The notes below the pieces were generated by a model. That model was not told where the DNA came from, searched no databases, and saw only the letters and a program-made list of their open reading frames with translations. From assembly GCA_030706635.1 (NCBI GenBank), contig JAUZOD010000004.1, forward strand, positions 1 to 64,000: a DNA stretch of 64,000 bases, given 5' to 3'. Shown here one piece after another: positions 36-28,872 of the stretch. Each line of letters opens with the position of its first letter. The first letter of the stretch is position 1. The DNA comes from Bacteroidota bacterium. GTDB lineage: Bacteria; Bacteroidota; Bacteroidia; Chitinophagales; Chitinophagaceae. Made by a program: the position numbers and the translations under genes.

Positions 36-45
36 CAATCGTTTG
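36..45. promoter_or_regulatory. Degenerate LacI-type operator upstream of GH97
   Basis: The sequence CAATCGTTTG matches the palindrome CAAACGTTTG, found perfectly at six other intergenic places in this window, at 9 of 10 positions. It is followed by CG, as at several of the other copies. It lies 74 bp before the preferred GH97 start. No good -7 element was found at the right spacing, so its role in that promoter is inferred only from the motif and position. Confidence 0.5.
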
Positions 46-119
46 CGTTTTAGCGGACGGTTTCCAATTGAATTTTTATGGAGATATTCGCGGCGAATAA
101 ATATCCGTCACGAATAAAA

Positions 120-2900
120 ATGAAAAAAAGATTCAATCTCTACCTATCCGGCAGTCTCGCTCTTTTAACGCTGATCACGGGATGTTCCCATCATGAAACA
201 ACATCAGTGATCAGCAGCCCTTCCGGCATTATTTCCGCATCCGTGTATGCCGACAGCAGCAACCGACTTTCTTATTCCGTACAATATCAGGGGAAGACCC
301 TGGTGGCCTCTTCGGCGTTGGGTATTACAGTAAACCAGAACGATCTGGGTCAGGGCGTGGACATCGGATCTCCGGATATCAGCACAGCAGATGAACAATA
401 CCCATGGACAGGCGTTCATGCAGTAGCGCATAACCATTTCCGTGAGGCGGTATTTCCCATCACGCACCGGTCCAGCGGCATTCATTATCAACTCGAGATA
501 AAAGCTTTTGATGATGGATTTGCTTTCCGGTACGTTGTTCCCGCCAAAGGAGTTTCCGTTGTGCACGGGGAAGCCAGTTCCTGGAAAATACCCGGAGGCT
601 CAACGGTATGGTACCAGGAAAATATTTTCTATTATGAAGGTTTGTATTACAGTGCTCCGGCAGGCCGGCTGGGTTCAAAAAGGATGGGACCGCCGCTCAC
701 TTACCAAACCGGCGACAGTCTTTACGCCAGCATCACCGAAGCCGCATTATATAACTATAGTGGCATGTCTCTTCAATCGGACAGTTCTGGCATCCTGCAT
801 GCCGCATTCGTCAATGATCCGCAGGGATGGAAGATCCGGGACACTATTGTGACTCCCTGGCGCGTGCTGATTGCTGGTTCAACCCTCAACGAACTCGTGA
901 ATTCCGATATCATTCCGGATTTGAATCCCGCGCCCGACAGCAGCCTGCAAAATGCAACATGGATAAAACCCGGAAGAGCCGTCTGGTCTTATTTCATGCA
1001 CGATAACGTAACCAGCCTGGGTCTGGAAAAAACCTATGTGGACAAAGCGGGATTGCTGGGATTTGAATATTCCGTGGTGGACGCCGGATGGCAACAGAGC
1101 TGGCCATCCAGCATGGATTCACTGAAGTCATTGGTGGACTATGCCCGTCCGAAAAAAGTAGGCATCTGGGTCTGGACATCCTATGCCGCCTTAAAAGAGG
1201 ATTCCATTCGCCGGCATTTCTTTAAAGCACTTCATGAAGCTGGGGTTGCGGGTGCAAAAATTGATTTTATTGATACGGAGAGTTTTGAGCGCATCCGGTT
1301 TTATGAAAATGCCCTGAAAGATGCTGCCGCCGAACGGTTGATGGTTGACTTTCACGGTGCTGATAAACCAACAGGGTATAACCGTCGTTACCCAAATGAA
1401 CTGACCCGGGAAGCGATCTATGGACAGGAATGGCGCACCTACAATCCGCAGGGACCCGCCAATAATGCCACCATTCCCTTTACCCGGTTTTTAGCCGGGC
1501 CGGGGGATTGCACGCCTGGTGTATTCAATAGCAAAAAAGCCTATGGCACATCCCGCGCGCAGCAACTGGCGCTACCCATCATCTACAATTCCCCGCTGGC
1601 CTGCTGGCCCGATGATCCGGATGTTTATTTAGCCAGTGCCGCGCTGCCCATCATCAAAGCCATTCCAACCACCTGGGATGAAACCCGGGTGCTGGAACCC
1701 AGCCGCATTGGCCATCTGGCTGTGTTTGCCAGGCGAAAAGGCAGCGATTGGTTTATTGCCGTCGCGAATGCGGGCGATGAAAAACGATTTTCAATTCCAC
1801 TGGGATTTTTAGGTAATGGAAAGTTTAAAGCCGATCTGGTGCGGGATGATCTGACCGACCCAGATTCATTCTTGTATTCACAGTCCGTATTTACCCGTTC
1901 CGATTCCCTGCTGGTCGTCGCCCGGCCCGCGGGAGGATTTGTCGCCATGCTCCGGGAAACCACTGATCAGGGTTCGCCGGCTCTATCCATCTATCCGGAG
2001 GGTGGTTATTTGTATGCGCCCATTCCCGTGACCATGAAAACGAATGCCGGATTCAGCATAAGATATACTACAGACGGCAGCAAGCCATCATTGCATTCAG
2101 TTTTATATACGCAACCGGTAACGGTGAAAGATCCGGTCATGATCAGGGCAGGTGTTTTTCACGAGAACCAGCCCCAGGAACTGGTTGGTGTCGCTCAATT
2201 CCTCGCTGCGCCTGCGCCGCGGCTCTCCGTCCCGGCTGGTATTTTCATAAATCAACAAACGGTCCGTTTGGATGCCGGCCAGCCAAAAGCGGATATTCAT
2301 TATACAACAGACGGCTCATCACCTGGTTTGTCTTCCCCGGTTTACAAGGACCCTCTGCTGCTGTCAAAAACAACCGTTCTCAAGGCCGCGACATTTTATG
2401 CATCGGGCATCCGGAGCGCAGTGAACACCGCAAACTTCCGTAAGGCGATACCTGCACCCGCCACGGCTGTTCAGCAAATAAATTCCGGACTCAGTGCCAT
2501 TTATTACGAGGGTCAATGGATAAAGATGCCCGATTTTAAAAAAATCTCCGGCATAAAAACCAGTGTGGCGGCTTTACCCGATCTGGACCTGCTGCAAACG
2601 CGCAAAAATTATTACGCTGTTCAGTTCACGGGGTATATTAAAATACCCGTGACCGGAGTATATAGTTTTTATATCAATTCAGATGACGGTTCACAGCTTT
2701 ACCTGGACGATCAGAAACTGATTGACAATGACGGCTGTCACGGCGATCTGGAAAAGTCAGGCGAGAAAGCCCTGGCTGCCGGCATGCACCGGTTCACGGT
2801 AAATTATTTTCAGAACGCATCGGGACAAACCTTACAGGTTTATATGAAAGCACCCGGATTTGAGAAGCAAGCCGTACCGGCGTCTATGTTTTTTCACTAA
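120..2900 (+). CDS. GH97 family glycoside hydrolase lipoprotein with chitobiase-type repeats and PA14 domain
   Basis: Probably a secreted alpha-glucosidase or alpha-galactosidase of family GH97, anchored in an outer or periplasmic membrane. The start at 120 is chosen because it opens a clean lipoprotein signal (MKKRFNLYLSG.. with lipobox LITGC); an in-frame ATG at 78 adds 14 residues without signal character. Order of parts: N-terminal beta-sandwich (about 30-280), catalytic barrel (about 285-560), a short C-terminal sheet, two chitobiase/HEX-type repeats each with YTTDGS (about 650-810), then a PA14 domain to the end. KIDFID places Asp382 where retaining GH97 enzymes carry the nucleophile, and the GQEW motif has Glu437, so a retaining alpha-galactosidase-like mechanism is plausible. 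Length 926 aa is longer than plain GH97 (about 650-700) because of the tail domains. A degenerate LacI-type operator lies upstream. Confidence 0.9.
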   Translation: MKKRFNLYLSGSLALLTLITGCSHHETTSVISSPSGIISASVYADSSNRLSYSVQYQGKTLVASSALGITVNQNDLGQGVDIGSPDISTADEQYPWTGVHAVAHNHFREAVFPITHRSSGIHYQLEIKAFDDGFAFRYVVPAKGVSVVHGEASSWKIPGGSTVWYQENIFYYEGLYYSAPAGRLGSKRMGPPLTYQTGDSLYASITEAALYNYSGMSLQSDSSGILHAAFVNDPQGWKIRDTIVTPWRVLIAGSTLNELVNSDIIPDLNPAPDSSLQNATWIKPGRAVWSYFMHDNVTSLGLEKTYVDKAGLLGFEYSVVDAGWQQSWPSSMDSLKSLVDYARPKKVGIWVWTSYAALKEDSIRRHFFKALHEAGVAGAKIDFIDTESFERIRFYENALKDAAAERLMVDFHGADKPTGYNRRYPNELTREAIYGQEWRTYNPQGPANNATIPFTRFLAGPGDCTPGVFNSKKAYGTSRAQQLALPIIYNSPLACWPDDPDVYLASAALPIIKAIPTTWDETRVLEPSRIGHLAVFARRKGSDWFIAVANAGDEKRFSIPLGFLGNGKFKADLVRDDLTDPDSFLYSQSVFTRSDSLLVVARPAGGFVAMLRETTDQGSPALSIYPEGGYLYAPIPVTMKTNAGFSIRYTTDGSKPSLHSVLYTQPVTVKDPVMIRAGVFHENQPQELVGVAQFLAAPAPRLSVPAGIFINQQTVRLDAGQPKADIHYTTDGSSPGLSSPVYKDPLLLSKTTVLKAATFYASGIRSAVNTANFRKAIPAPATAVQQINSGLSAIYYEGQWIKMPDFKKISGIKTSVAALPDLDLLQTRKNYYAVQFTGYIKIPVTGVYSFYINSDDGSQLYLDDQKLIDNDGCHGDLEKSGEKALAAGMHRFTVNYFQNASGQTLQVYMKAPGFEKQAVPASMFFH

Positions 2901-2915
2901 GACAGTGGGCAATTG

Positions 2916-4328
2916 TCAATCCTTTTTCGGGGCCATCTTCACGACCACCGTATCCGACGCGAGGAAAGAAACTTTATATCCGCCCGTATCCAGGTGCGTT
3001 TTCGGGAAACTGCCGGCCAGTGTGGCCCAGTCTTTTCCTTTAACACCCGTTTGGTAGAGGTATAAATTTTTCAGATGTTTCAATGGCTTTAGAACCAGGA
3101 TTCCGGATGCCGTAACAGAATCTCCCACCAGGTTCAGGGATTGGAGTCTGGTCAGGGATTGAAGTGCCGGCAAGCCTTTGTCGCTGACGCGTGTTCCGTT
3201 TAATTGAAGGAGGGTGATTGACTGACACTGACCGATGTAGGACATCGAAGAATCGCCGATTTTTGTATTTCCCAGTTTCAGCCAGATCAGTTGTTTCTTA
3301 AGCGGCACCAGCAGCGCCAGATCCTGATCCCGGATATTGACGGCATTGATAAAATCAACCATCAGATAGTTGCTGTTTTGAGCAACCGGTATTACGACCA
3401 CACCTTTTTCCTTTAATGCGTCCATGCTTTTGATATCGGCTGCTTCCACCGGCACTGCTGGCACCAGGGAATCCTGATCATGCGAACCGCTGTTTTGCAG
3501 AGCCAGGAGGTAAGTCTTGATTTTCCCGGGCTGTTCAAAATCTTTTACTTTTCTGTCAAAGCCGGCTCCCTGTTCGATCCACCATTTGATCAGGGCAATC
3601 TGTGATTCCTTAAGAGCAGGTTTTTCCTTGGGCATATGGTGCTCGTCCGTCGTTGGCAGCATAATGCGTTTTACCAGTTCACTCGCGTCGGGTTTGGTTG
3701 GAATGAGCAAGGGTCCGCCCTTCCCGCCTTTCATGATCCATACAGAATCATCCATGCGCAGTTTTCCTTTTTGTCGTCCCCGGCCATGACAGCTGTAGCA
3801 CTCCTTCTGAAATATCGGTTGAATAACATCCGCGTATAATTGAGCTTCCTGGATATTGCTGATGGGCTTATGCACGGGCAGCGGTGCATCATCCACTTCA
3901 CTTAATGCGGCAGTCAGATAATCAGATCCATGGGTTAAAGATCCGCCGAGATGACCAGTGATCATGATCAGCAGCAGCAACATGATGGAAAGCCCTTTAT
4001 ATAAGATATCGGTTTCCTGGCGAACGATCTTCCAGTAAATCAGTGAAGCAGTAACAGCCACGGCGATGCCCATCCACATATGCCAGTCCACCAGGCCCTC
4101 TTCATAATCGCCGCTGGTAGAAAGCACATAACCGGTCAGGCAGGATATCCAGGCGCAAAGCATGCCCGTGACAAAAACGATTTTGATCACCTGGATAGAG
4201 ACCGCATGGCTTTCTCTGTTGTGCAGCCATTGTAATAATATGCCGATCAGTAAAATGCCAATAGGCAGGTGAACCAGCACAGGATGAAGCCGGCCAAAAA
4301 CTGTTGTAACAGATAGAAGCACGTTCAA
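2916..4328 (-). CDS. Membrane c-type cytochrome with DUF2231-like helices and leucine-rich repeats
   Basis: A 470-residue protein in three parts. Residues 1-140 hold about four membrane helices of DUF2231 type. Residues 160-260 are a planctomycete-type cytochrome c domain with heme motif CYSCH (Cys177-His181) and a likely axial Met232 in HHMPKE. Residues 330-445 form several leucine-rich repeats (LIWLKLGNTKIG, LLQLNGTRVSD and so on). It is the last gene of the leftward operon, 17 bp after the TIM-barrel gene, and it meets the GH97 gene tail to tail 15 bp away. The heme suggests electron transfer at the cytoplasmic membrane, facing the periplasm; the repeats suggest protein binding. Substrate and partner are not known from the sequence. 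Confidence 0.85.
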   Translation of the reverse strand: MNVLLSVTTVFGRLHPVLVHLPIGILLIGILLQWLHNRESHAVSIQVIKIVFVTGMLCAWISCLTGYVLSTSGDYEEGLVDWHMWMGIAVAVTASLIYWKIVRQETDILYKGLSIMLLLLIMITGHLGGSLTHGSDYLTAALSEVDDAPLPVHKPISNIQEAQLYADVIQPIFQKECYSCHGRGRQKGKLRMDDSVWIMKGGKGGPLLIPTKPDASELVKRIMLPTTDEHHMPKEKPALKESQIALIKWWIEQGAGFDRKVKDFEQPGKIKTYLLALQNSGSHDQDSLVPAVPVEAADIKSMDALKEKGVVVIPVAQNSNYLMVDFINAVNIRDQDLALLVPLKKQLIWLKLGNTKIGDSSMSYIGQCQSITLLQLNGTRVSDKGLPALQSLTRLQSLNLVGDSVTASGILVLKPLKHLKNLYLYQTGVKGKDWATLAGSFPKTHLDTGGYKVSFLASDTVVVKMAPKKD

Positions 4329-4345
4329 AGTTTGATAAGTAATAA

Positions 4346-5284
4346 TCAGGAAAGATACCGCTTACGCAGGGTTTGCATAATGTAAACGTTGATTGCCCAT
4401 TGATCCGCCAGCGGCTGGCGCGTATAGGGAAGGGCGGGCATATAATCCGGAGGGCCGAATTCGGTCAGAATGGTTAGCCTTCCCCCATTTTTCTTTTTCA
4501 TGGCCACCACGCTATCCCACCAGGCAAAATGCGCTTTCACGCAGTCATCCCATTCGGGTGCCCTCGGGTCATTCACCTGGGGACCATCCGGATGGCCAAT
4601 CCGTGCATGGATATGGTCCACCCTGGGCAGGGCGATGTTTACAGATTCCACCTGGTCATCCAGCAAACTATTGTGTACAGTGCACCAATGGGAGATATCC
4701 AGCGTCAACCGGAGATCCGGATTTTTCTCAATGAATTGCCGGGTGGCGGGGGCGGCAAACAACATTCTGGACCGGTGGGTTTCGTGATGAATCGGGATGC
4801 CTGTTTTTTTTGACAGGGCATTGGTGTAATCAATGAAAGCCTGATTCTCTTCCCGGGTAAAGAAATCCCTGCCTGAATGACAATTAATATAAATTGGTTT
4901 CTGGTAAGTGTTGTAAGCCGAAGCGTCGATGTTTTTTTTAAATTCAGACAAATGTTCTGCCCACTTGCCGGAATCGCCGGAAATCAGGAGTCCGACCTGC
5001 AGCTGGTATTTTTTTAGAGCCGCGAAAAGATCATCCTGTTTTGCCTTTTGCTGGGGCCACCAGATTTCAATGCCGTCAAAACCATCACTTTTTAATTTGG
5101 CACAACAGCTGTCAATAGTTCCTTTGTAGCCCCAGTCGGTGCCGAGGATGATCAGCTCGAAATTGTTGTTCATGAACGCATGCGGTTGTTTAGGTGATTC
5201 GGCAAAGGCATCCAGTGATGCCAGCAAAAGGGCTGTGGTTGCAGAGGAGCTTGTCTTTATAAAATGCCGTCGGTTAAAATTCAT
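4346..5284 (-). CDS. Tat-exported TIM-barrel protein, sugar phosphate isomerase/epimerase family
   Basis: 312 residues. The N-terminus reads NRRHFIKTSSS followed by a hydrophobic stretch ending near AFAES, a twin-arginine signal, so the protein is folded before export to the periplasm. The rest is a xylose-isomerase-like TIM barrel (DGIEIWWPQQ, THHxTHRSR-like HHETHRSR, LTLDISHWC, VDHIHARIGH, LTEFGPP), with His, Glu and Asp residues fit to bind a divalent metal. Exported members of this family occur with DUF1080 and Gfo/Idh/MocA proteins in 3-keto-sugar metabolism; that link is inference here, resting on the divergent DUF1080 gene. It sits 3 bp after the DUF1501 gene in the same operon. Confidence 0.85.
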   Translation of the reverse strand: MNFNRRHFIKTSSSATTALLLASLDAFAESPKQPHAFMNNNFELIILGTDWGYKGTIDSCCAKLKSDGFDGIEIWWPQQKAKQDDLFAALKKYQLQVGLLISGDSGKWAEHLSEFKKNIDASAYNTYQKPIYINCHSGRDFFTREENQAFIDYTNALSKKTGIPIHHETHRSRMLFAAPATRQFIEKNPDLRLTLDISHWCTVHNSLLDDQVESVNIALPRVDHIHARIGHPDGPQVNDPRAPEWDDCVKAHFAWWDSVVAMKKKNGGRLTILTEFGPPDYMPALPYTRQPLADQWAINVYIMQTLRKRYLS

Positions 5285-5287
5285 GGG

Positions 5288-6808
5288 TTAAGCGATGATG
5301 TCGTCAATTACCGTTCCGCTGACATCGGTCAAACGGCAGGGTCTGCCCTGGAATTCGTACGTGAATTTGGTATGATCAAATCCCAGCTGATTCAGTATCG
5401 TGGCCTGGATATCAAATGCATTTACTTTTCCGCTGACTCCGCTATAACCGATCTCATCGGTCTCCCCGTAAGAATATCCCTTTTTTATTCCGCCTCCGGC
5501 CATCCAGATCGTAAATGCATCTACATGATGGTCTCTTCCCTTGAATGGATTTTGTTTACCATCGCGGTTTTCCATCATAGGTGTTCTTCCAAATTCACCG
5601 CCCCATACCACCAGGGTCTCTTCCAGCAAGCCTCTCTGTTTAAGATCGAGCAATAAAGCGGTGACGGGTTTATCTATGGTTCTGCATTTGTTCACCAGGC
5701 CGATATCGACTGCCGTATCGGGATCCGTACCATGATCATCCCATCCCCAGTCGAACAGCTGTACAAAACGAACTCCTTTTTCCACCAGCTTGCGGGCGAG
5801 CAATACGTTATTGGCGAAGCAGGCCTCATTTGGTTTTGTGCCATACATATCGTGGATGTACTGGGGCTCGTCATTGATGTTCATCACTTCCGGAACGGAT
5901 ATCTGCATGCGGTAGGCCAGCTCATATTGAGAGATCCGCGAAATGATTTCCGGATCATTGTACTCTTTGTATTCCTGACGATTTACGTTGTTGATGGCGT
6001 CGATGGATGCTTTGCGGAGGTCTCTGTTCATTCCATCCGGATTCTTGATGAAAAGCACGGGGTCCCCTTCGCTGCGGCACTGTACGCCCTGGTAAACGGA
6101 AGGCAGGAATCCGCTTCCCCAGATGCTTTTGCCCGCATCCGGAAAATGCCCGCCGGATGTCAGCACAACATATCCCGGCAGATTTTGATTTTCAGTACCG
6201 AGTCCGTACGTAGTCCAGGCTCCGATACTCGGCCTGCCGAGGCGCGGCGTGCCGGTATGTACGAGCAACTGGGCCGGCGCGTGGTTAAACTGATCCGTGC
6301 TCACCGCTTTTAAAAAGCAGATCTCATCGGCCACAGTGGCCAGATGCGGAAGATTATCGCTGATCCAGGCTCCGCTGGACCCGCGTTGTTCAAATCGGGC
6401 TTGGGGGCCCAGCATTTTTGGAACACCACGGATAAACGCGAACCTTTTTCCTTTTAAAAGAGATTGCGGGCAGTCCTGCCCGTTTAATTTCATCAGATCC
6501 GGCTTATAATCGAATAATTCCAACTGCGACGGGGCGCCTGCCATGTGGAGGTATATGACTCTTTTTGCTTTTCCCGGAAACATCGGCAGTTTGGGCGCCA
6601 GCGGATGAGCCAGTGCGAAATCAACATCGGCAGCACCTGCCGCTGCTGCAGATGCTCCGCTTCCGCAGGAGGTCAGAAAAGAACCCAGGGCCAGCGCACC
6701 CATACCCATAGCGCTTTCTTTCAGAAAATGCCGGCGCGTGAAATGCCGCAGGATGCGATCGTTGGCCTCTTTGATCAGCTGCGGATTATGCAATTCTTTT
6801 TGTGTCAT
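5288..6808 (-). CDS. DUF1501 domain protein with Tat signal
   Basis: 506 residues with the N-terminal motif TRRHFLKES and a hydrophobic segment ending in FLTSCGSG, which could be a Tat signal or Tat-lipoprotein signal. The body is a DUF1501 domain, an alkaline-phosphatase-superfamily fold: HMAGAPSQLELFDYKP near the start, then VDIGLVNKCRTIDKP and WGGEFGRTPMMENRDGK, followed by GRDHHVDAFTIW. DUF1501 genes are nearly always next to DUF1549/DUF1553 cytochrome genes, as here (28 bp downstream of one). The biochemical role of the pair is not established; sulfatase-like or extracellular polymer handling has been proposed from fold alone. Full length, no sign of damage. Confidence 0.9.
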   Translation of the reverse strand: MTQKELHNPQLIKEANDRILRHFTRRHFLKESAMGMGALALGSFLTSCGSGASAAAAGAADVDFALAHPLAPKLPMFPGKAKRVIYLHMAGAPSQLELFDYKPDLMKLNGQDCPQSLLKGKRFAFIRGVPKMLGPQARFEQRGSSGAWISDNLPHLATVADEICFLKAVSTDQFNHAPAQLLVHTGTPRLGRPSIGAWTTYGLGTENQNLPGYVVLTSGGHFPDAGKSIWGSGFLPSVYQGVQCRSEGDPVLFIKNPDGMNRDLRKASIDAINNVNRQEYKEYNDPEIISRISQYELAYRMQISVPEVMNINDEPQYIHDMYGTKPNEACFANNVLLARKLVEKGVRFVQLFDWGWDDHGTDPDTAVDIGLVNKCRTIDKPVTALLLDLKQRGLLEETLVVWGGEFGRTPMMENRDGKQNPFKGRDHHVDAFTIWMAGGGIKKGYSYGETDEIGYSGVSGKVNAFDIQATILNQLGFDHTKFTYEFQGRPCRLTDVSGTVIDDIIA

Positions 6809-6836
6809 TTTTTCAAAATTGAATGTCCATTTCTGT

Positions 6837-9608
6837 CTAATTCTTTGTGATCACCTCATCCAGATTTAACAGGGCGCCGGCAACAACCACCCATGCCGCC
6901 GTTTCCGGATTGTCATGCATTTTTTCAAGACCGGCGATATCGCGGGTCTTGTCGGGATCATTTTTATATTGCTGGTAAGCCGTATCGTACAAATGTTTCA
7001 AAACTTCCATTTTGCTCTTGCTGATCGGCTTCAGCATGGCAATCTCATATCCTTTATTGATTACGTCTACCGGATTTTCTTTATCTGCGGATTCCTGCAG
7101 CATGCGGTAAGCCAGAAACCGGGATGCTTCCTGGTAAACAGAATCGTCCATGGTCACCAGCGCCTGCAGCGGGGTGTTGGAGAGTATTCTTCTCGACGTG
7201 CATACTTCCCGGGACACGCCGTCGAATGTGATCATGGAAGGATAGGGGGCAGTCCTTTTCAGGAAAGTATAAACCGCACGCCGGTACTGATCTTCACCTT
7301 TGCTTTTATCCCAGGTATCGCTGTTGTATGGAGAATGCCAGATACCTGCCGGTTGCCAGGGCATAACCGAAGGGCCAAACATTTTATTACTGATCAGGCC
7401 GCTGAGGCTAAGTGCCTGGTCCCGGATTTCCTCGGCAGACAAGCGAACCCGCGATCCTCTTTCCAGCCATTTATTGTAGGGGTCCTTTACCAGCATTTCC
7501 CTGCTCACCTTTGAATCCTGGCGGTATGTGGCAGACATGACCATTTCCTTCAGCAATTTCTTAACACTCCATCCATCATCGTACATAAACTGGTAGGCCA
7601 GATGATCCAGCAGGTCTTTGTGTGTGGGGACTGCCCCCTGTGTACCCATATCTTCCAGGGTTTCAACCAGCCCGGTTCCAAAAAGCTGTTCCCACAAACG
7701 GTTGACCATGGTTCTCGCAGTCAACGGATTTTTTTTATCGGTAATCCACATCGCCAGTCCCAGCCGGTTACGGGGCGCATTTTTTGGAAAAGGATTCAGA
7801 GAATGGGGTACATCGGCCTGCACCTTTTCACCTTTCACCAGCCAGTTTCCCCTTTCAAACACATAGGTATTGCGATGCATGGAAGGCGGATTATCCATCA
7901 TCACCGGTGGGCCCGTAACATCCGCATTGACCAGCTCCCAATACATTTTTTCTATTTCCTTATTTTCCTTCGTGCCTGTTTCCGGAAAACGTTGCGTGAA
8001 ATGAAACCATTCAAACTGCACGCCATCACTTAACTTTCCTTTTAACCGGGGATTGCTGTAGGTCATGTACAGATCATGCGTTCCCTGAACAGGTGGAAAA
8101 TCAGTGTACACAATCGCCCAGTCTGATTTCTTTTTTATTGGTTTAATAGGGATAGTTTGCAATACGGCTCCATGGAGGCTGTCCAGGTGGATTGTCCAGA
8201 CACCATCCGGAATCCTGGCATTATATCGGTACACCAGCCTGTTTTTCTGATCGAGGTTTACCTGCTGAAATCTGGCGGAAGCATTTTCACGGAACGTGAG
8301 GAACTTGGTATCTGCCAGGGCACTGTTGACCATCTGGTCTGCCCTTGTTGAATTGATGGACATCTGCCAGGTTTTCAAAAATCTCCTTTCATCAGCTGCC
8401 TGCTGCTCGGGTTCATTCTTTTTCAACCAGTCACATACCTTCAGGAGCTTGAGGCTATCCTCGGTGGAAAACTGCCGGAGTATCGGATAATCACCATAGG
8501 TATCCTCATCACGGCTATCGTTAAAAAAAGCCATGAATTTATAATACTCATCGTGTTTAAAAGGATCATAAGGATGACTATGGCATTGTACACAGGCAAA
8601 AGTAGTCCCCATGATTCCCTGCCAGGTGGTGTTTACGCGATCCAGTACGGCGGCCGTGCGGAATTCTTCATTGTCGGTTCCCCCTTCATCGTTGGTCATC
8701 GTATTGCGATGAAAGCCAGTGGCAATCATTTGGGCATCCGTATGATGCGGAATAAGATCACCGGCAATCTGCTCGGTTATGAAATCATTATAGGGCTTGT
8801 CCTGGTTGAAAGCGCGTATCACCCAGTCGCGGTACTTCCAGATATACCACCGGTCGCCGTCTTTTTCATATCCCCTGGTATCAGCGTAACGCGCAAGATC
8901 GAGCCACATGGAGGTCCAGCGCTCACCAAAATGCGGCGAAGCCAGCAAACTGTCCACCAGCTTTTCATAATGCTGGTCATCCGGGTTATCGAGATATTGT
9001 TTTGCCAGAGAAGGATCGGGGGGCAGGCCCGTTAGATCGAAACTGACTCTTCTTAAGAGAATGGCCTTGTCCGCTTCCGGCGAAGGCTGCAATTTCTCCT
9101 CTTTCAACTTGGCGTAAACAAAATAATCGATATCATTTTTAGCCCAGCTTAGCGGACTGGCGGGAATCAATCCGAAAAAATGCGGTTTGGGTTTTGGCAC
9201 TTCAACGGGTTCGACGGCAACATAAGCCCAGTGGTCGCCCCATTTTGCGCCCTGTTTGATCCACCTGCGCAGTATATCAATATCTGAAGTACTGAGTGGA
9301 TCGTGTTTGTAGGGCATACGTTCTTCCGGATCCTTCAGCGTAAGCCGCCGGATCATCTCGCTGTGGTCAGGGTCTCCGGGAATAATGGCCGGTTTGCCGG
9401 ATTTATTTTTTGCCAGAGCTTCGGACCGGAACAAAAGACTGAAATTGGACAATCGTTTTACGCCCCCGTGACAGGTGATGCAATTCTTGTTGAGGATCGG
9501 CTTAACCTGCGTAATATAATCCACCGGATGGTTTATGGTACTATAAATCACCAGCACGGCAATTAATACAAGCGAAATCGTCAGTAATAAAACTTTCTTT
9601 TTTCCCAT
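6837..9608 (-). CDS. DUF1549/DUF1553 planctomycete-type cytochrome c protein
   Basis: First gene of the leftward operon. The start at 9608 (MGKKKVLLLTISLVLIAV) is chosen because it opens with one membrane anchor; an in-frame ATG at 9707 would add 33 residues and would put the start codon inside the operator at 9705-9714. From this start the protein has 923 residues: a membrane helix (6-24), a PSCyt1 heme domain (CITCH, Cys43-His47), DUF1549 (about 140-350) including a second CxxCH (CVQCH, followed by SHPYDPF), a linker with a sandwich-like region, and DUF1553 (about 650-900; TARTMVNRLWEQLFGTGLV). Two CxxCH motifs imply a periplasmic diheme protein. The family is typical of Planctomycetota and is also found in Bacteroidota carbohydrate loci. 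Confidence 0.9.
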   Translation of the reverse strand: MGKKKVLLLTISLVLIAVLVIYSTINHPVDYITQVKPILNKNCITCHGGVKRLSNFSLLFRSEALAKNKSGKPAIIPGDPDHSEMIRRLTLKDPEERMPYKHDPLSTSDIDILRRWIKQGAKWGDHWAYVAVEPVEVPKPKPHFFGLIPASPLSWAKNDIDYFVYAKLKEEKLQPSPEADKAILLRRVSFDLTGLPPDPSLAKQYLDNPDDQHYEKLVDSLLASPHFGERWTSMWLDLARYADTRGYEKDGDRWYIWKYRDWVIRAFNQDKPYNDFITEQIAGDLIPHHTDAQMIATGFHRNTMTNDEGGTDNEEFRTAAVLDRVNTTWQGIMGTTFACVQCHSHPYDPFKHDEYYKFMAFFNDSRDEDTYGDYPILRQFSTEDSLKLLKVCDWLKKNEPEQQAADERRFLKTWQMSINSTRADQMVNSALADTKFLTFRENASARFQQVNLDQKNRLVYRYNARIPDGVWTIHLDSLHGAVLQTIPIKPIKKKSDWAIVYTDFPPVQGTHDLYMTYSNPRLKGKLSDGVQFEWFHFTQRFPETGTKENKEIEKMYWELVNADVTGPPVMMDNPPSMHRNTYVFERGNWLVKGEKVQADVPHSLNPFPKNAPRNRLGLAMWITDKKNPLTARTMVNRLWEQLFGTGLVETLEDMGTQGAVPTHKDLLDHLAYQFMYDDGWSVKKLLKEMVMSATYRQDSKVSREMLVKDPYNKWLERGSRVRLSAEEIRDQALSLSGLISNKMFGPSVMPWQPAGIWHSPYNSDTWDKSKGEDQYRRAVYTFLKRTAPYPSMITFDGVSREVCTSRRILSNTPLQALVTMDDSVYQEASRFLAYRMLQESADKENPVDVINKGYEIAMLKPISKSKMEVLKHLYDTAYQQYKNDPDKTRDIAGLEKMHDNPETAAWVVVAGALLNLDEVITKN

Positions 9609-9704
9609 TCGAGGATCATTAGGGCTAATTGATTGGGCCAATTGACTGCAAAAGTTATCGAATTTATCGCGCTTTCCCAAATAACAGCACAGTTGATCCG
9701 GATG

Positions 9705-9726: not shown

Positions 9727-9736
9727 CAAACGTTTG
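9727..9736. promoter_or_regulatory. LacI-type operator, right member of twin pair
   Basis: Perfect palindrome CAAACGTTTG followed by CG. The last four bases, TTTG at 9733-9736, are also the -33 element of the rightward promoter, so a bound repressor would directly block RNA polymerase. Confidence 0.78.
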
Positions 9737-17888: not shown

Positions 17889-17902
17889 ATTCGTTCATAT
17901 AC

Positions 17903-21587: not shown

Positions 21588-21597
21588 CAAACGTTTG
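21588..21597. promoter_or_regulatory. LacI-type operator before the NahK-like kinase gene
   Basis: Perfect CAAACGTTTG, followed by CGC on the plus strand. It lies 22 bp before the kinase start codon on the minus strand and after the end of lacI, so it can control the kinase separately from lacI. Confidence 0.75.
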
Positions 21598-21657: not shown

Positions 21658-22683
21658 TCATTTATTTTCATGGATGATCAACTGGGAATCAAGTATGATC
21701 TTGAAATAGGTTGCTACTTCCGAATCATCCTTTTTACTGTCAATAAGCTCCAGCAAGGTTTCCATAGCTTTCTGACCCTGTTGATAGGGGAATTGTTCAA
21801 CGGATGCAAGCGGCGGAAAGGCCGTATAGTTGGTGATGGGCAGATTGGCATAACTCACAAAACAGATATCCTTGTTGATCTTACGTTTTTCCTTTCTGGC
21901 GTATTGAACGGCGTCCAGGGCAACATAATCATTGAAAGCCACGATGGCTGTCGGTTTGCGTTTGGAGTTCAAAAGCTGACGGGTGGCTTCATACACCATT
22001 TCGGTACTTAAATCGGTCGAGATGAGCAGGAAGGGATCGAACTTCAGACGGTTCCTGGCCATGGCTTTCATATAACCGTCCTGCCGTTCCTGGCAGGCCA
22101 GCAGTTTTTCCGGGCCGTTGATCATACCAATCACCCGGTGGCCTTTGTCGATCAGGAAATTGATGGCCTGGATGGTGCCGGACTGCATATTGCAGGCCAC
22201 ATAGTGAATATTGGACATCCGGGGTATGCAGTCAAAAAAAACGATGGGAATATTGTATTTCCTCAACGCTTCAAAATGCTCATAACTGCTTGTGTTTTTC
22301 GAAATGGAAACCAGCAGCCCGTCCACCCGGTGGTTTTTCATAGTCTCCACGATTTTCTTTTCCCGTTCTTCATTATCGTGGGACTGGCCCATCAACACCG
22401 TATAGTTGTGTTTATTTGCACAATCTTCTATGCCACTGATGGCTGAGGAAAAAAATGCTTCCGAGAGTCGGGGTAAGATAACGCCAACGGTAAACGTTTT
22501 GCGTTGCTGGAAGAAAATAGCCGTTTGGTTCGGCTCATAGTTCAATTCCTTGGCCAGTTGCTGTACCCGCGTCTTGGTCCTGATGCCGATGCTGCGGTGA
22601 TCATGCAAAGCCCTGGAAACCGTTGAAATCGAAACATTCAAACGCTTTGCAATTTCTTTCAGCGTGGCGAGTTTTTTATCCAT
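21658..22683 (-). CDS. LacI/GalR-family transcriptional regulator
   Basis: 341 residues. The N-terminal 60 form the LacI DNA-binding domain: TLKEIAKRLNVSISTVSRAL followed by the hinge region near LNYEPNQTA. The remainder is a periplasmic-binding-protein-like effector domain (VGVILPRLSEAFFSSAISGIE, RVDGLLVSIS, IVFFDCIPR, KPTAIVAFNDYVALD). The most likely protein to bind the repeated CAAACGTTTG palindromes, because a copy lies 104 bp in front of its own start and all other copies sit in front of neighbouring genes. The effector is expected to be a sugar or sugar phosphate released by the regulated enzymes. Confidence 0.93.
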   Translation of the reverse strand: MDKKLATLKEIAKRLNVSISTVSRALHDHRSIGIRTKTRVQQLAKELNYEPNQTAIFFQQRKTFTVGVILPRLSEAFFSSAISGIEDCANKHNYTVLMGQSHDNEEREKKIVETMKNHRVDGLLVSISKNTSSYEHFEALRKYNIPIVFFDCIPRMSNIHYVACNMQSGTIQAINFLIDKGHRVIGMINGPEKLLACQERQDGYMKAMARNRLKFDPFLLISTDLSTEMVYEATRQLLNSKRKPTAIVAFNDYVALDAVQYARKEKRKINKDICFVSYANLPITNYTAFPPLASVEQFPYQQGQKAMETLLELIDSKKDDSEVATYFKIILDSQLIIHENK

Positions 22684-22786: not shown

Positions 22787-22796
22787 CAAACGTTTG
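22787..22796. promoter_or_regulatory. LacI-type operator between lacI and the GH109-type gene
   Basis: Perfect CAAACGTTTG followed by CGCC. It lies in the 184-bp divergent gap, 104 bp from the lacI start and 71 bp from the GH109-type start, so it could serve both autoregulation and control of the enzyme. A TATATTCG -7-like element follows at 22823-22830, but the spacing from the operator TTTG is 26 bp, too long for the consensus. Confidence 0.75.
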
Positions 22797-22867
22797 CGCC
22801 CGCGTGATGGTTGATATTGATATATATTCGAAATTGATTTAAAAAGCCCCGTTTTTAAAATACCAAT

Positions 22868-24316
22868 ATGAAAGGCAACCGCAGACGTTTCTTACGCAAT
22901 TTATCCCTCGGAACCGCAGGACTCACTGCAGGAATTCCTTTATTGGCCAACCCATTGCGGCTGCCGCGCGTCGAATCACAAGATCAGCCTGCACCGGACT
23001 CTTCGTCAGGCGTTTCCAGCTTCAATATGTGTGGCTATGCAGCGCCTAAAATTGACAAAGTGCGGATCGGTTTTATCGGCCTTGGCCATCGGGGCCCGGG
23101 CGCGGTAGAACGGATATCACATATTGAAGGCGCAGAAATTAAGGCCTTGTGTGATAAGCTTCCGGAACGGGTTGAAGCTGCTCAAAAAATATTGGAAACA
23201 GCCGGTTTGCCCAGAGCGAAATCATATTCCGGCGTGGATGGATGGAAGGCCCTGGTAGAAAGCAATGATGTTGACTTCATCTATACCTGCACCCCCTGGC
23301 GTTTGCATACACCCATCGCGGTTTATGCCATGAATAATGGCAAACATGTGGCGACGGAGGTTCCTTCGGCCATAACGCTGGATGAGTGCTGGCAATTGGT
23401 TGAAACATCTGAAAAGACCAGAAAGCATTGTGTGATGCTGGAGAATTGCTGTTATGATTTCTTCGAGTTGCTTACTTTAAACATGGTTCGCAACGGCTTT
23501 TTCGGTGAACTGGTTCACGCCGAAGGCGGCTATTTGCATAACCTGCTCGATGAAAATTTCAGGAAGATCAGCGAGGGTGGTTATATGGATATGTGGCGGC
23601 TTCGTGAAAATGCCATGCGCAACGGGAATCTTTACCCAACCCACGGACTGGGGCCCCTGGCGCAATGCATGAATATTAACCGCGGAGATCAGATGGACCA
23701 TCTGGTGTCCATGTCGTCTGATGATTACCTGATGGGTGTCACCGCGCGGGAACTGGCGGCAAAGGACAACTACTATCAGGAATTCGCCGACAAGCATTAC
23801 CGCGGCAATATGAACACCACCGTGATCAGGACCGTGAAAGGTAAAACCATCATGATCCAGCACGATGTCACGAGCCCTCGTCCTTATTCCCGGATCCATC
23901 AGCTGAATGGCACCAAAGGAATGGCCCGTAAATATCCGGAACCGGCTTGCATTTCTTCTTTAAAGAATCCGGATGAATGGATAACCGCCGCAGAGATGAA
24001 GGATCTGGAAGAAAAATATACCTTACCCATCGTGAAACACGTAGGGGAAATCGCCAAAAAGATAGGCGGTCACGGGGGAATGGATTTTGTACAGGACTGG
24101 CGGCTGATCGATAATCTGCGTAACGGATTGCCACTCGATCTGGATGTTTATGATGCCGCCTTGTGGAGCGCCATTTCGCCACTCGGCGAAAAATCCGTTG
24201 CTTCAAAATCCAGAACCGTGGACATTCCAGATTTCACCCGGGGGAACTGGAAGACCAATAAACCATCGGCACTCACACTGGAAGGCGGAGGAACGACGAC
24301 GATAAGAAACGCCTAG
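22868..24316 (+). CDS. GH109-type NAD-dependent glycosidase (Gfo/Idh/MocA family)
   Basis: 482 residues. The N-terminus NRRRFLRNLSLG with a hydrophobic stretch is a twin-arginine signal, fitting a protein exported folded with bound NAD. Residues 64-190 are a Rossmann domain (VRIGFIGLGHRGPGAVER; GLGHRG at 71-76), and the second half is the Gfo/Idh/MocA C-terminal domain. YPTHGLGP with His259 and the sequence around it match GH109 alpha-N-acetylgalactosaminidases, which cleave by transient oxidation at C3. It is divergent from lacI across an operator, and ends 12 bp from the opposing GH92 gene. A general 3-keto-forming oxidoreductase is the main alternative. Confidence 0.88.
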   Translation: MKGNRRRFLRNLSLGTAGLTAGIPLLANPLRLPRVESQDQPAPDSSSGVSSFNMCGYAAPKIDKVRIGFIGLGHRGPGAVERISHIEGAEIKALCDKLPERVEAAQKILETAGLPRAKSYSGVDGWKALVESNDVDFIYTCTPWRLHTPIAVYAMNNGKHVATEVPSAITLDECWQLVETSEKTRKHCVMLENCCYDFFELLTLNMVRNGFFGELVHAEGGYLHNLLDENFRKISEGGYMDMWRLRENAMRNGNLYPTHGLGPLAQCMNINRGDQMDHLVSMSSDDYLMGVTARELAAKDNYYQEFADKHYRGNMNTTVIRTVKGKTIMIQHDVTSPRPYSRIHQLNGTKGMARKYPEPACISSLKNPDEWITAAEMKDLEEKYTLPIVKHVGEIAKKIGGHGGMDFVQDWRLIDNLRNGLPLDLDVYDAALWSAISPLGEKSVASKSRTVDIPDFTRGNWKTNKPSALTLEGGGTTTIRNA

Positions 24317-24328: not shown

Positions 24329-26623
24329 TCACTTCCAGTTGTAGTTCGGCTTGGGTCCCATTTCAAAAACTAAATCTTTACCGTTGATGAGATCAGCATG
24401 ACTGATGAATGGATGTTCGATGGGCTTTCCATCGAGACTCACTTTTTGAATATATTTATTTTCCGCGGATAAATTCCTGGCCACGATGTTCAGCTGGCGA
24501 TCCTGGTTTCCCACTTTATAATGCAGGGTGAGCCGGGGGAATTGCGGCGCGCCGATGGCATAGATCCCAGAACCCGGGGCAACCGGATAAAAACCCATTA
24601 CGCCAAATATGTACCAGGCCGACATCTGGCCGCAATCGTCATTTCCATTGATTCCCAGCGGTTCGTCGCGATAGTTAAAACGGGTATGGGTTCTCACCAG
24701 CTCCTGTGTTTTCCAGGGCTGACCGCAATAATCGAACAGATAAATATAATGATGTCCCGGCTCATTGTCGTGATGATAATGACCCTGGGTGAAATTGGAA
24801 TCCAGTTTAGCAGCAAATTTTTCATTTCCACCCATAAGCGCGATCATGCCGGCAGGGTCATGCATGGCGCCAAAAGCGTAAGTCCATTTATCCCCTTCCG
24901 TAAAGCCAACAGTATCCGGAACATTAAAAGTTCCATCGAATTTACGCGGTCCGAAAAATCCCGTTTCCGGAATAAAAAGATTCTTGTAGTTCTTACTCCA
25001 TTGGGTGAGGAGATTGTAATCATCCGTTTTCCCCAGATCCTTTGCGACTACCGAAACACAATAATCATCATAAGAATATTCAATGGTTCTGGAAACGGAT
25101 TCCGATGTTTTATCCACGGGCACGTATCCAACCGCATGTTCGTAACTCATGCCCGCCCTGGCTTCGCTGGCCGTCCACGGATCCCGGTCGGCCCAAAGAT
25201 GTTTTGTATCGCAATCCGGAGGAACCATGGCATCGTGCCGGATGGCTTCGTAAGCCAGGTTTACATCATATCCGCGAAATCCCTTTATATAGGCATCCGC
25301 AATCACGGCATCGGCATGGGTGCCGATCATGATATTCGTTTCAGCCGGATTGGGCCACATGGGAAGCCAACCACCTTCCTTATACATCTGTAAAAGAGAA
25401 TTGACCATGCCATTGACCAGTTCCGGCTGGGTGAAGATCAGCAGCGGATGAAGCGCACGGTAGGTATCCCATAAAGAATAATCCGTATAAGAAATGCCAT
25501 TGTGCACCCGGTCGTCAAAGGCGCTGTAATATTTACCATATTCTGAAAATTCTCTTGGAAACAACATCGTATGAAACATCGCGGTGTAAAAAATAGTCTT
25601 CTGCGCATCGGGCACATCAGCTACTTCGATACGGCTCAGATTCTCCTGCCAGATATTGCGCGTACGAATGGCCAGTTTATCAAAGTACCAATCGGAAATC
25701 TCCTCTTTCAGATTTTTCCTTGCCTGCTCCAGACTTATAAAAGAAGTGGCCATGCGAACCAATACCTGTTCCTTATCCTCCGTTTTAAAACTGATGTAAG
25801 CGCCCATGCGCGTACCATATTGTTCTGTTGTTAAAGGAAAAGTTTCCGAGCCGCTCCAGGTACCAAAAGAATCAAAAGCCTTGCTGAACTGAATGATGAA
25901 ATATCCTTTGAAATTGGGAAGGTCCGGGCCCAGCTGAGCGGATTGCCTGTCAGGATTATATCCCGTGATCTCTTTGTTTTCTTTATCCACTTTTACAAAT
26001 CCTTTCAGTTTCTTTATCCTCGATTCCACGTCGTTGGCCTGGTCGGCCAGCGCCGGATTCAGGTTGATACCCTGGATTACGATATGGGCCTGATCTGATT
26101 TGGGAAATGTAAACCGGAAAAAACCGCAACGGCTGGCCGCAGTGATTTCACCCCTGATCTGTTTTTTATTTCCGGCCTTTAACAAAACGGAATAATAATA
26201 AGGCTTGGCGATCTCGTCCTTATGACTGAACGGGAGAGCCCTGTTTTCCGGCAGTGTTTTTAATTCCCCGATTTCAGGCATTACCGAAAAATATCCATAA
26301 TCACCCATCCAGACGGTGGGCTGATGGGATCCCATAAAGCCCATGACGGTGCTGTCTTCATAGATATAAGGCATCCGGCTCATCTTGTTCTGACTGGTCT
26401 GCACCACAAAATTGGTCATGGCATGCGGATCACCCACCGTTGGGAAAGTGCCGCCCCCCTGCAGGTCTTTTTCAAAACCGGCAAACGGAGTTCCGATGAT
26501 CGGATTTACATAATCCACTTCCTGCTTTTTTTGCTGACTTTTCTTTTGCGCGTTTGCAGCAGGGATCAGGGCGCAAAACAGGATTGCCAGCGGGATGGCT
26601 TTGAGAATATCTATTTTATACAT
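24329..26623 (-). CDS. GH92 family glycosidase (alpha-mannosidase type)
   Basis: 764 residues with a signal peptide ending near AANAQ. The GH92 pattern is complete: VDYVNPIIGT at the mature N-terminus, TFPTVGDPHAMTNF, HDNEPGHHY with Glu621 as the likely acid, and GNDDCGQMSAW (660-670) with the Asp pair that supplies the base. GH92 enzymes are calcium-dependent inverting exo-alpha-mannosidases. Spaced 41 bp after the GH29 gene on the same strand, so both are probably one transcript started at the operator at 28196. Confidence 0.93.
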   Translation of the reverse strand: MYKIDILKAIPLAILFCALIPAANAQKKSQQKKQEVDYVNPIIGTPFAGFEKDLQGGGTFPTVGDPHAMTNFVVQTSQNKMSRMPYIYEDSTVMGFMGSHQPTVWMGDYGYFSVMPEIGELKTLPENRALPFSHKDEIAKPYYYSVLLKAGNKKQIRGEITAASRCGFFRFTFPKSDQAHIVIQGINLNPALADQANDVESRIKKLKGFVKVDKENKEITGYNPDRQSAQLGPDLPNFKGYFIIQFSKAFDSFGTWSGSETFPLTTEQYGTRMGAYISFKTEDKEQVLVRMATSFISLEQARKNLKEEISDWYFDKLAIRTRNIWQENLSRIEVADVPDAQKTIFYTAMFHTMLFPREFSEYGKYYSAFDDRVHNGISYTDYSLWDTYRALHPLLIFTQPELVNGMVNSLLQMYKEGGWLPMWPNPAETNIMIGTHADAVIADAYIKGFRGYDVNLAYEAIRHDAMVPPDCDTKHLWADRDPWTASEARAGMSYEHAVGYVPVDKTSESVSRTIEYSYDDYCVSVVAKDLGKTDDYNLLTQWSKNYKNLFIPETGFFGPRKFDGTFNVPDTVGFTEGDKWTYAFGAMHDPAGMIALMGGNEKFAAKLDSNFTQGHYHHDNEPGHHYIYLFDYCGQPWKTQELVRTHTRFNYRDEPLGINGNDDCGQMSAWYIFGVMGFYPVAPGSGIYAIGAPQFPRLTLHYKVGNQDRQLNIVARNLSAENKYIQKVSLDGKPIEHPFISHADLINGKDLVFEMGPKPNYNWK

Positions 26624-26664
26624 ATGGCTGATTGACCGGAAGAAATTGTTGTTGTTGTGCTTAA

Positions 26665-28119
26665 TTATTTTTTGAAAATGACTTTATAAACCACGGCAAA
26701 ATCGGAAGGATAATGAGCCGAAGGCTTTATGCTCAACTCGGCATCATGCTGCGTCCAGCTGATTTTATCCGTGCTGCCCATCATGCTGATGTTTGCAATC
26801 AGGCCATGATTTGTTTTTGATCCCAGGGATTTGACGATTGTTTTTTCCGCAGGCAGTCCGAGGGTGATTACAAATAATGTATCTCCCCTGGTAGTGAAGC
26901 GGATATCTTTTGCATTGAAAGGAATCGTCTGGTCGGCAAAAGCGCCACTGGCGGATCGGGTGGGGCCTTCGCCATACAATTTCCATGGGCGGGTTCCGTA
27001 AATAGCATCTCCGTTGACATCCAGCCATTTCCCGGTGCCGAGTAACACCTGCGTTTCTTCGTCGGTGATGCTGCCGTCGGAACGGGGGCCGATATTCAGC
27101 AACAGGTTGCCATTCTTACTTACGATATCAATCAGGTTGGTCACCACGTACCGGGCTGTTTTAAACGTATTATTTTTTATATATCCCCAGGAGATATTAC
27201 CGATGGCATCATCCGTTTGCCAGGGCAGCTGACGAACAGAATCCAGTTTTCCCCTTTCGAGATCCAGAACGGCCACGCCGTCGGGAAAGGAGCGGTCATA
27301 TTTATAATTGATCACTACGCCCTTATTCCACTGCAATCCTTTATTATAATAATAAGCTGCAAAAGATTTCCGGTAAGGTTCCAGTGCAGGCTGCTGAATC
27401 CACCAGTCGAACCAGAACAATTGCGGCTGGTAATTATTCACCAGTTCTGTGCAACGCAACAGCCAGTCGTTCATAAATTCCGGCGTCATGGTCTCATTTT
27501 CCTGACGTGCGGGACCGTAAAAATCGGCGTATTGCGGATCGAGTACATCGGATTTAAATTCCCGTCCATGGTTCAGGAAAAACCAATGTTCTATGCGGTG
27601 GGACGACAAGCCAAAGATCAGGCCCTGCCTGCGGATCTCTTTAGACAGTTCTCCGATGATGTCCCGCTTTGGCCCCATATTAAATGCATTCCACCGGGAA
27701 AGAGCCGTGTTGTACATAGCGAAGCCATCATGATGTTCCGCAACCGGAACAATGTATTTGGCGCCTGCTTTTTTGAACAGGGTTACCCACTGCACAGGAT
27801 CAAATTTTTCAGCTTTAAACATCGGGATGAAATCCTTGTAACCGAATTTATCCTGCGTGCCATAAGTCGCCACATGATGTTTAAATTCATCGGAAGCCGT
27901 ATCGTACATATTACGCGGATACCATTCACTTCCGTAAGCAGGCACAGAGTAAACGCCCCAATGAATGAAAATGCCGAATTTGGCATCCCGGAACCATTCC
28001 GGCGTTTGATATTTTGAAAGCGATTCCCAGTTAGCCTGGTATCTTTCCTGGGACTGTGCATGAAAACTGAAATTGGTCAGAAAGCAAATCAAAAAAAATA
28101 CGTAGCGCGCTTTTTTCAT
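26665..28119 (-). CDS. GH29 alpha-L-fucosidase
   Basis: 484 residues with a type I signal peptide (MKKARYVFFLICFLTNF, cut near AQSQ). GH29 barrel signatures: KFGIFIHWGVYSVPAY, AEHHDGFAMYN (His129-His130-Asp131) and QLFWFDWW, where Asp238 is the expected nucleophile. A C-terminal beta-sandwich follows from about 370. A retaining exo-alpha-L-fucosidase in the periplasm is expected. First gene of a two-gene leftward unit with GH92; a perfect operator lies 76 bp upstream and overlaps the proposed -33 element. Confidence 0.93.
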   Translation of the reverse strand: MKKARYVFFLICFLTNFSFHAQSQERYQANWESLSKYQTPEWFRDAKFGIFIHWGVYSVPAYGSEWYPRNMYDTASDEFKHHVATYGTQDKFGYKDFIPMFKAEKFDPVQWVTLFKKAGAKYIVPVAEHHDGFAMYNTALSRWNAFNMGPKRDIIGELSKEIRRQGLIFGLSSHRIEHWFFLNHGREFKSDVLDPQYADFYGPARQENETMTPEFMNDWLLRCTELVNNYQPQLFWFDWWIQQPALEPYRKSFAAYYYNKGLQWNKGVVINYKYDRSFPDGVAVLDLERGKLDSVRQLPWQTDDAIGNISWGYIKNNTFKTARYVVTNLIDIVSKNGNLLLNIGPRSDGSITDEETQVLLGTGKWLDVNGDAIYGTRPWKLYGEGPTRSASGAFADQTIPFNAKDIRFTTRGDTLFVITLGLPAEKTIVKSLGSKTNHGLIANISMMGSTDKISWTQHDAELSIKPSAHYPSDFAVVYKVIFKK

Positions 28120-28167: not shown

Positions 28168-28199
28168 GGAATGTAGTCGGCATGGCCATGACGTGCAAA
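28168..28199 (-). promoter_or_regulatory. Probable promoter of the GH29-GH92 unit
   Basis: On the minus strand, TTTG (28199-28196), inside the operator, is followed after exactly 20 bp by TACATTCC (28175-28168), a 4-of-6 match to the fixed bases of TAnnTTTG. Same arrangement as in the rightward promoter near 9750, but with a weaker -7 element. Confidence 0.5.
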
Positions 28200-28205
28200 C
28201 GTTTG
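28196..28205. promoter_or_regulatory. LacI-type operator before GH29
   Basis: Perfect CAAACGTTTG. It lies 76 bp before the GH29 start on the left and 97 bp before the broken isomerase gene on the right. Confidence 0.75.
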
Positions 28206-28302: not shown

Positions 28303-28723
28303 ATGCAACGCAGGAATTTTATGCAGAAATCGTTATTGACAGGAGCCGGTTTAATCGCCGGCGCTTCACTAAAGGCCAATACAGCCGGAGAAAAAGAGAG
28401 ACTCAACGACAGCAAACCTTTTAATCTGCAATACGCTATTCACGATGGTATGTTCCGGGAGTCGGCAGCGGAATGAAGGAGACATCATACAACATATTGA
28501 CTGGAGCTGGGATCAGATCGGTTATTTACAGATAGGGGATAACCCCGGACGGAACGAACCCACATCGGGCGAGATGAATTACAAAAATATTTTCAGGCAT
28601 CTCTACTATAAAGGATACAAAGGCATTCTGGGCATGGAGCATGGAACGGCAAATCCCGGCAAGGAAGGCGAACAACAACTGATAAAAGCCTACCGGTGGA
28701 GCGATGACTTTATTAAAGCGTGA
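28303..28723 (+). pseudogene. Broken hydroxypyruvate isomerase-like gene, internal deletion
   Basis: An ATG at 28303 opens a 57-residue frame with a Tat-like signal (QRRNFMQKSLLTGAG) and the start of a mature TIM barrel (FNLQYAIHDGMF), then runs into a stop at 28474-28476. The next frame, readable from about 28470 to 28723, encodes the C-terminal end of the same family: GDIIQHIDWSWDQIGYLQIG, DNPGRNEPTSGEMNYKNIF, GYKGILGMEHG. Intact exported members have about 290-300 residues, so roughly half of the barrel, including most metal ligands, is missing and the frame is shifted. A remnant of a once regulated gene, not a working enzyme. Confidence 0.82.
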
Positions 28724-28744
28724 TGCGTAAGAAAACTGAAGAAG

Positions 28745-28780
28745 AGGCCGTGTCAAAAACAAATGGGGCGGCCTTTTTTA
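28745..28780 (+). terminator. Hairpin terminator after the broken isomerase gene
   Basis: AGGCCG (28745-28750) pairs with CGGCCT (28769-28774) across an 18-nt loop and is followed by a run of T. It ends transcription from the left before SusC. The stem is only six perfect pairs, so strength is moderate. Confidence 0.6.
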
Positions 28781-28862
28781 TTGAGTTCTTTTTGCCGCGG
28801 GAAAAAAGAGGGCAGAACAATCGGTTGCGTTGAAAAATAAGCTTGTTTACAAAGAATTAACT

Positions 28863-28872
28863 CAAACGTTTG
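28863..28872. promoter_or_regulatory. LacI-type operator before SusC
   Basis: Perfect CAAACGTTTG followed by CGGG, 162 bp before the SusC start. It is the rightmost copy of the motif in intergenic DNA of this window. Confidence 0.75.

Follow-up and report, generated by a model that had tools for sequence, protein, structure and literature searches.

The first 64,000 nucleotides of contig JAUZOD010000004.1 (assembly GCA_030706635.1), from a member of the Chitinophagaceae (Bacteroidota) and hereafter called the window, encode a LacI-family regulator and carry several copies of the ten-base palindromic word CAAACGTTTG between genes. This raises the question of whether the encoded regulator uses the word as its operator, which transcription units it would serve, and how a protein bound there would act on their promoters. 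On the sequence comparisons set out below, the likely explanation is that the word is the LacI operator, that it marks a core regulon, and that the bound protein may contact RNA polymerase at a subset of promoters.

The word and its probable LacI-family regulator

Six exact copies of CAAACGTTTG are present in the window (at 9705, 9727, 21588, 22787, 28196 and 28863), together with a one-mismatch copy, CAATCGTTTG, at 36, exactly where an initial annotation of the window had placed them. The rarity that this annotation attributed to the word was borne out by dinucleotide shuffling of the window (n = 100), which yielded a mean of 0.17 and a maximum of 2 exact copies, and so was the placement between genes and near a start, as all six exact copies lie outside called open reading frames (ORFs), with 101, 123, 27, 77, 81 and 168 bp, respectively, between site centre and nearest start (i.e., a range of 27–168 bp). 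The TTG start of a naive ORF (6837–9707) falls within the 9705 copy; the first ATG of this ORF is at 9608. Two further one-mismatch words, which had not been listed, are located within genes (7695 and 41629). When a weight matrix trained on the sites of relatives was applied to the window, the exact copies scored 19.9–23.1 and the copy at 36 scored 19.3, with the next-best scores being 16.1 (41629, coding) and 12.1 (28818, non-coding), so that the matrix set seven non-coding sites (19.3–23.1) apart from all else (≤16.1).

The regulator gene (21658–22683, minus strand) was confirmed as a LacI-family gene with a copy of the word in front (22787, 104 bp before its start), since its product combines a LacI helix-turn-helix with a periplasmic-binding-like sugar domain, both above the Pfam cut-off (LacI 5.3e-14 and Peripla_BP_1 4.2e-29). 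Its nearest named orthologues belong to Ferruginibacter and other Chitinophagaceae, and 131 of 195 family genomes have a LacI match with an E-value of 1e-40 or below (orthologues and paralogues pooled). Using a profile of 12 LacI orthologues, the best 80 of 559 relatives were kept as named loci, and all 1,024 ten-base palindromes were counted within 350 bp of lacI in the 79 loci with at least 200 bp upstream. CAAACGTTTG ranked first upstream of the lacI orthologues (34/79, the runner-up palindrome reaching 3/79) and was present in 48/79 with one mismatch allowed. Throughout the 80 loci (1.53 Mb), 122 copies were found versus a mean of 1.4 for CG-centred palindromes of the same composition; 118 of the 122 were not in called ORFs (allowing a 20-bp tolerance at the ends of ORFs), non-coding DNA making up 10.8% of the loci and window DNA.

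The word, with an extended consensus of about TTACGCAAACGTTTGCGTAA, is an even palindrome with a central CG and stands upstream of the targets, and LacI-family operators have been described as even, CG-centred palindromes (PMC4052901). Top palindrome rank, non-coding placement and gene linkage thus support the earlier assignment of the word to this LacI, and CAAACGTTTG is very probably the operator of the protein encoded at 21658–22683.

Extent of the proposed regulon

The genes of the 80 lacI loci were surveyed for the word within 250 bp upstream, where it preceded 23/46 NahK, 20/36 SusC, 33/85 LacI and 12/32 GH109 homologues, against a background of 36/840 genes without a homologue in the window. 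Moreover, nahK adjoins lacI in 44 of the 80 loci. The conserved core comprises lacI, nahK, GH109-type genes and SusC, so that the part of the initially proposed regulon covering lacI, the kinase, GH109 and SusCD stood, with the word enriched upstream of these groups in relatives. In the window (operator sites being given without strand), the site at 21588–21597 has the top matrix score (23.1) and precedes the nahK-like N-acetylhexosamine kinase gene (20474–21565, minus), whose product has the APH fold and aligns over residues 22–349 to the solved NahK structures 4ocu (E 1.2e-48), 4wh1 and 4ocj (E about 1e-48); it is NahK-like by full-length similarity, with predicted activity on N-acetylglucosamine (GlcNAc) or N-acetylgalactosamine (GalNAc). 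The site at 22787–22796 separates lacI from the gene for a GH109-type Gfo/Idh protein (22868–24316, plus; Pfam Glyco_hydro_109_C 2.7e-44), and that at 28863–28872 precedes SusC and SusD (29035–33897, plus; Pfam/NCBIfam), downstream of which a further run of mostly glycosidase genes was identified (Pfam/NCBIfam).

Beyond this core, the site at 28196–28205 precedes GH29 in a minus-strand pair of GH92 and GH29 genes (24329–28119; Pfam/NCBIfam), and the one-mismatch site at 36–45 (matrix score 19.3) precedes GH97 (78–2900, plus); the putative membership of GH29-GH92 and of GH97 is suggested by one site each. A broken gene remnant with frame changes (28307–28740), exported and sugar-isomerase-like by impression, lies between the 28196 and 28863 operators. 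Among 40 other downstream proteins in the loci, 30 were scanned, and the 25 of 48 families listed include aldose epimerase (5 members), DUF3472/DUF5077 (4), sulfatase (2) and, with one member each, GH123, GH88, GH2, GH3 and GH31, as well as Beta-lactamase, Amino_oxidase and Exo_endo_phos, which have no plain glycan role. Taken as a count of units bearing the word, the "at least six transcription units" of the initial annotation is fair.

Two copies 22 bp apart (9705–9714 and 9727–9736) separate the two operons that had been called redox operons, i.e., a minus-strand operon encoding PSD1/PSCyt, DUF1501, TIM-barrel and PSCyt-DUF2231 proteins (2916–9608) and a plus-strand operon encoding a 3-keto-disaccharide hydrolase, DUF7133-cupredoxin, TMEM220 and EboA to EboF (10017–20493; both Pfam/NCBIfam). 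The latter contains a complete ebo cluster with its six genes in order (13903–20493). EboC (397.9 vs. a cut-off of 250), EboE (500.1 vs. 250) and the EboA domain (163.8 vs. 50) scored above their cut-offs, and the EboA_family model scored below (206.8 vs. 320); the TatD, DHQ-synthase-like and phosphodiesterase genes standing between and after the EboA, EboC and EboE genes we take to be eboB, eboD and eboF. One study reportedly connects an ebo cluster with scytonemin precursor export.

The inclusion of both operons in the regulon fared less well. On the PSD1 side, a putative promoter element of the Bacteroidota –7 type (TANNTTTG), i.e., TAACTTTT (5 of 6 positions; 9650–9657, minus), is located at +57 from the 9705 operator (offsets being counted from the first base of the word to the first base of the box), but PSD1 homologues in relatives had an exact site within 600 bp in 0/29 cases and a one-mismatch site in 4/29 (L170, L174, L175 and L179, with L175 and L179 directly beside lacI). 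On the other side, in none of 14 3-keto-hydrolase homologues did a site with zero or one mismatch occur within 500 bp (farther-upstream sites before another first gene were not sought), so that conservation gave this part of the claim no support and a conserved LacI-ebo link was rejected. If the ebo operon is controlled at all, this would seem to be a feature of the present lineage. The core regulon could therefore be real while 9705 and 9727 serve the PSD1 operon only, or nothing, an alternative with an even chance of being right. It agrees with the missing sites and with the orientation of the +57 box towards PSD1; nevertheless, a perfect –7 box, TAACTTTG (9758–9765, plus), faces the ebo operon 21 nt past the 9727 copy, and the 22-bp distance between both copies fits a reported peak of LacI intersite distances (PMC4052901).

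Distance between operator and promoter

The position of the –7 box relative to the word was determined in the relatives, with a match requiring at least 5 of 6 positions, near-duplicate sequences being removed, and significance being derived from 5,000 random shifts per sequence (offsets 20–117). Upstream of nahK, the box was located at +36 in 14 of 17 regions, and in 70 other promoters (neither nahK nor lacI) it peaked at +57 (10/70, the next offsets within 20–117 having 4); none of the 5,000 permutations did as well in either case. The ten strong +57 boxes precede seven unlabelled genes, two GH109 genes and one SusC gene. The TA dinucleotide likewise stood at +57 in 32 of these 70 promoters, including 12 of 18 SusC promoters, followed by 16 at +47 and 12 at both +36 and +62. 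When 30 nahK regions from the 195 family genomes were inspected, 11 had a site with zero or one mismatch. The box was at +36 in six of these 11, and each remaining offset was seen once at most; one of the six is the window itself, while the remaining five share no more than 46% identity over 100 bp with the 17 earlier nahK sequences. Both offsets differ by 21 bp and place the operator centre at –43.5 and –64.5 (numbered with the T at –12, as in the Flavobacterium johnsoniae study; PMC6847099).

Within the window, predicted boxes at +36 face nahK (TAAGTTTG, 6 of 6; 21554–21561, minus; from the 21588 operator) and GH109 (TATATTCG, 5 of 6; 22823–22830, plus; from the 22787 operator), which together with the +57 box towards PSD1 makes three fits in 24 tests (i.e., six exact sites, two directions and two offsets; probability by chance about 0.003, rising to 0.03 when nahK is left out). 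Since the nahK box falls a few bases within the called ORF (start 21565), translation of the kinase probably starts from Met7 at 21547. A weak operator-like sequence, CAATCGGTTG, was also noted at 28818, 45 bp ahead of the 28863 copy, and this same variant precedes nahK with the box at +36 in L238 and L259.

Fixed, helically phased spacing of the kind known for CRP argues for contact with RNA polymerase. In the mechanism that we propose, a LacI dimer would bind CAAACGTTTG and control its own gene, the nahK-like kinase gene, the GH109-type gene and the SusCD pair; its control would probably extend here to the neighbouring glycosidase and PSD1/DUF1501 units. As effector we propose GalNAc, GlcNAc or another N-acetylhexosamine set free from glycans, or the phosphate of such a sugar, and the regulon as a whole probably serves amino-sugar catabolism. 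At the fixed-distance promoters, LacI would be centred at about –43.5 or –64.5 and touch RNA polymerase from there, and lacI would be autoregulated without clear fixed geometry.

A number of observations do not favour such a two-distance rule. An offset of +13, outside the tested range and beside the word, was found in 8 of the 70 promoters; a box of at least 5 of 6 positions stood at +57 in only 1 of 18 SusC promoters; and five promoters of the window (i.e., those of SusC, GH29, GH97, lacI and the 3-keto-hydrolase, the last with its box at +31 and +53) deviate from the rule. Shared descent may moreover account for part of both peaks: a large part of the nahK pattern could have arisen in this way, as the nahK promoters are orthologous, and shared descent applies less easily to the +57 promoters because these belong to different genes. 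A class-wide search for the word, a gap and TANNTTTG gave mostly scattered matches, the commonest gap being 26 bases (12 of ~105 by hand count, not relied on); many genomes in this search may be without the regulator.

These data also bear on classical repression, in which a dimer bound at the promoter or close to it keeps RNA polymerase out and dissociates upon binding the sugar, the spacing being simply inherited. Most LacI-family members do repress, and inheritance would suffice for the orthologous nahK promoters; in addition, a box at +13 would place the operator inside the promoter, and the 9727 copy is centred at about –38.5 from the 3-keto-hydrolase box. The family also mostly senses sugars and controls carbohydrate genes (PMC4052901). 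However, promoters of different genes share the second distance at exactly 21 bp from the first, –64.5 appears too far upstream for simple blocking, and the 29 promoters of lacI itself lack a count peak (0.50), with a mean-score signal at +50 (0.025). We rate repression somewhat below an even chance.

For the fixed-distance promoters, the odds of activation as opposed to repression are put at about one in two, with a slight tilt towards activation because a dimer centred at –64.5 would leave the promoter uncovered. The argument that a missing –33 box implies an activator was dropped, since a study of F. johnsoniae found the –33 motif far less evident than the –7 box (PMC6847099). More tentatively still, this LacI-type group, which is widespread in Chitinophagaceae, Sphingobacteriaceae and Hymenobacteraceae, might be a true activator of glycan-use promoters. 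It would contact the RNA polymerase of Bacteroidota, a diverged enzyme, from two sites (about –43.5 and –64.5) separated by two helical turns, much as CRP acts at its class II and class I sites. Precedents for such contact are the CRP positions –41.5 and –61.5, a GalR site at –60.5, and activation by CcpA and Cra. CcpA, Cra and GalR are family members able to activate or to contact RNA polymerase from an upstream operator, whereas the pattern here is one of two constant operator positions, 21 bp from each other, ahead of a Bacteroidota –7 box. Cra activates gluconeogenesis genes (PMC4052901).

Copies elsewhere and related regulators

In total, 11 exact copies of CAAACGTTTG occur in the genome (4.58 Mb, 162 contigs), six of which fall in a 19-kb part of the window, versus three copies of the reversed word, and CAAACGTTTGCG occurs six times, four of them in the window. 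Many genic copies genome-wide had been named beforehand as speaking against the regulon; of the five copies outside the window, three are ORF-covered (C28, C80 and C130, the last by short overlapping ORFs alone) and two are intergenic, located 297 bp before a sodium:solute symporter gene (C94) and 77 bp before a DUF5107 gene (C109). A perfect 14-bp version, TGCAAACGTTTGCA, was seen before this DUF5107 gene (L010 1499–1512, contig C109 of the same genome), with –7-like words at +37 and +56. Across the 195 family genomes, the exact word is often no commoner than its reversed control (by eye, not totalled), and because of this only placement and clustering were used as evidence.

Several findings count against the assignment of the word to this LacI. 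The exact word is missing upstream of lacI in 45/79 loci and even the one-mismatch word in 31/79, and none of the eight loci of a Chitinophaga clade has an exact copy. Three other LacI genes of the genome are preceded by related palindromes. In three genomes without a close orthologue (one with distant paralogues at 1e-54), 10 of 15 copies examined, out of 20, are intergenic, so that the word alone is no proof of membership; four of those copies sit in TTAAAC/GTTTAA boxes (L215, L217, L219 and L222), and such repeated boxes are probably the sites of another regulator. An alternative, in which the word is chiefly the binding site of a different factor (an unrelated regulator or one of the genome's three further LacI proteins) and its linkage to lacI is incidental, would accommodate both the related palindromes and the boxes, but is very improbable given the strong enrichment directly upstream of this lacI group and its neighbour nahK, and the window copies without TTAAAC flanks.

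With the word as operator of this LacI group, the closest known system is PurR of Escherichia coli, which has the same domain order, solved structures matching the window LacI at E 1e-38 to 1e-39, and a nearly identical operator (RegPrecise consensus ACGCAAACGTTTGCGT; PMC4576408). Its targets nevertheless differ, the window regulon consisting of glycan genes, and identity with PurR was rejected (NCBIfam score of 183.7 vs. a cut-off of 501), as was identity with CcpA (158.2 vs. 442.35); the protein is not the same equivalog as GalR either (117.5 vs. 557). Residue 58 in the hinge (window 22510–22512) is Phe in 69/81 and Leu in 12/81 members of the group, and the corresponding position is Leu in PurR and LacI. 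Within the phylum, KdgR, UxaR, UxuR and UxmR of Bacteroides also govern LacI-family sugar regulons but control hexuronate pathways, and the Bacteroides regulator table of the same sources gives no LacI for N-acetylhexosamines and the ROK protein NanR instead (PMC3878776, PMC4052901). The 2014 LacI survey, in its available text, covers one Bacteroides group only (PMC4052901). UxuR2 of Algoriphagus marincola belongs to the LacI family and has a GH109 gene in its regulon but is tied to galacturonate and glucuronate genes, nahK not being mentioned in the accessible part of that source (PMC5507952). Among the titles and abstract openings listed for the literature searched, mostly outside subscription journals, none described this lacI-nahK regulon. 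CG-centred LacI regulons are well known; the lacI-nahK-GH109-SusC regulog is new, of a known kind.

These results connect a regulator with an operator and with a set of target genes for the use of N-acetylhexosamines and glycans in many Bacteroidota, and give a likely operator for this LacI orthologue group along with an exact, testable promoter geometry. To our knowledge, the activation of Bacteroidota promoters, with their –7 box and weak –33 element, is little studied; a LacI protein acting from two phased positions, if true, would be a convenient model for it.

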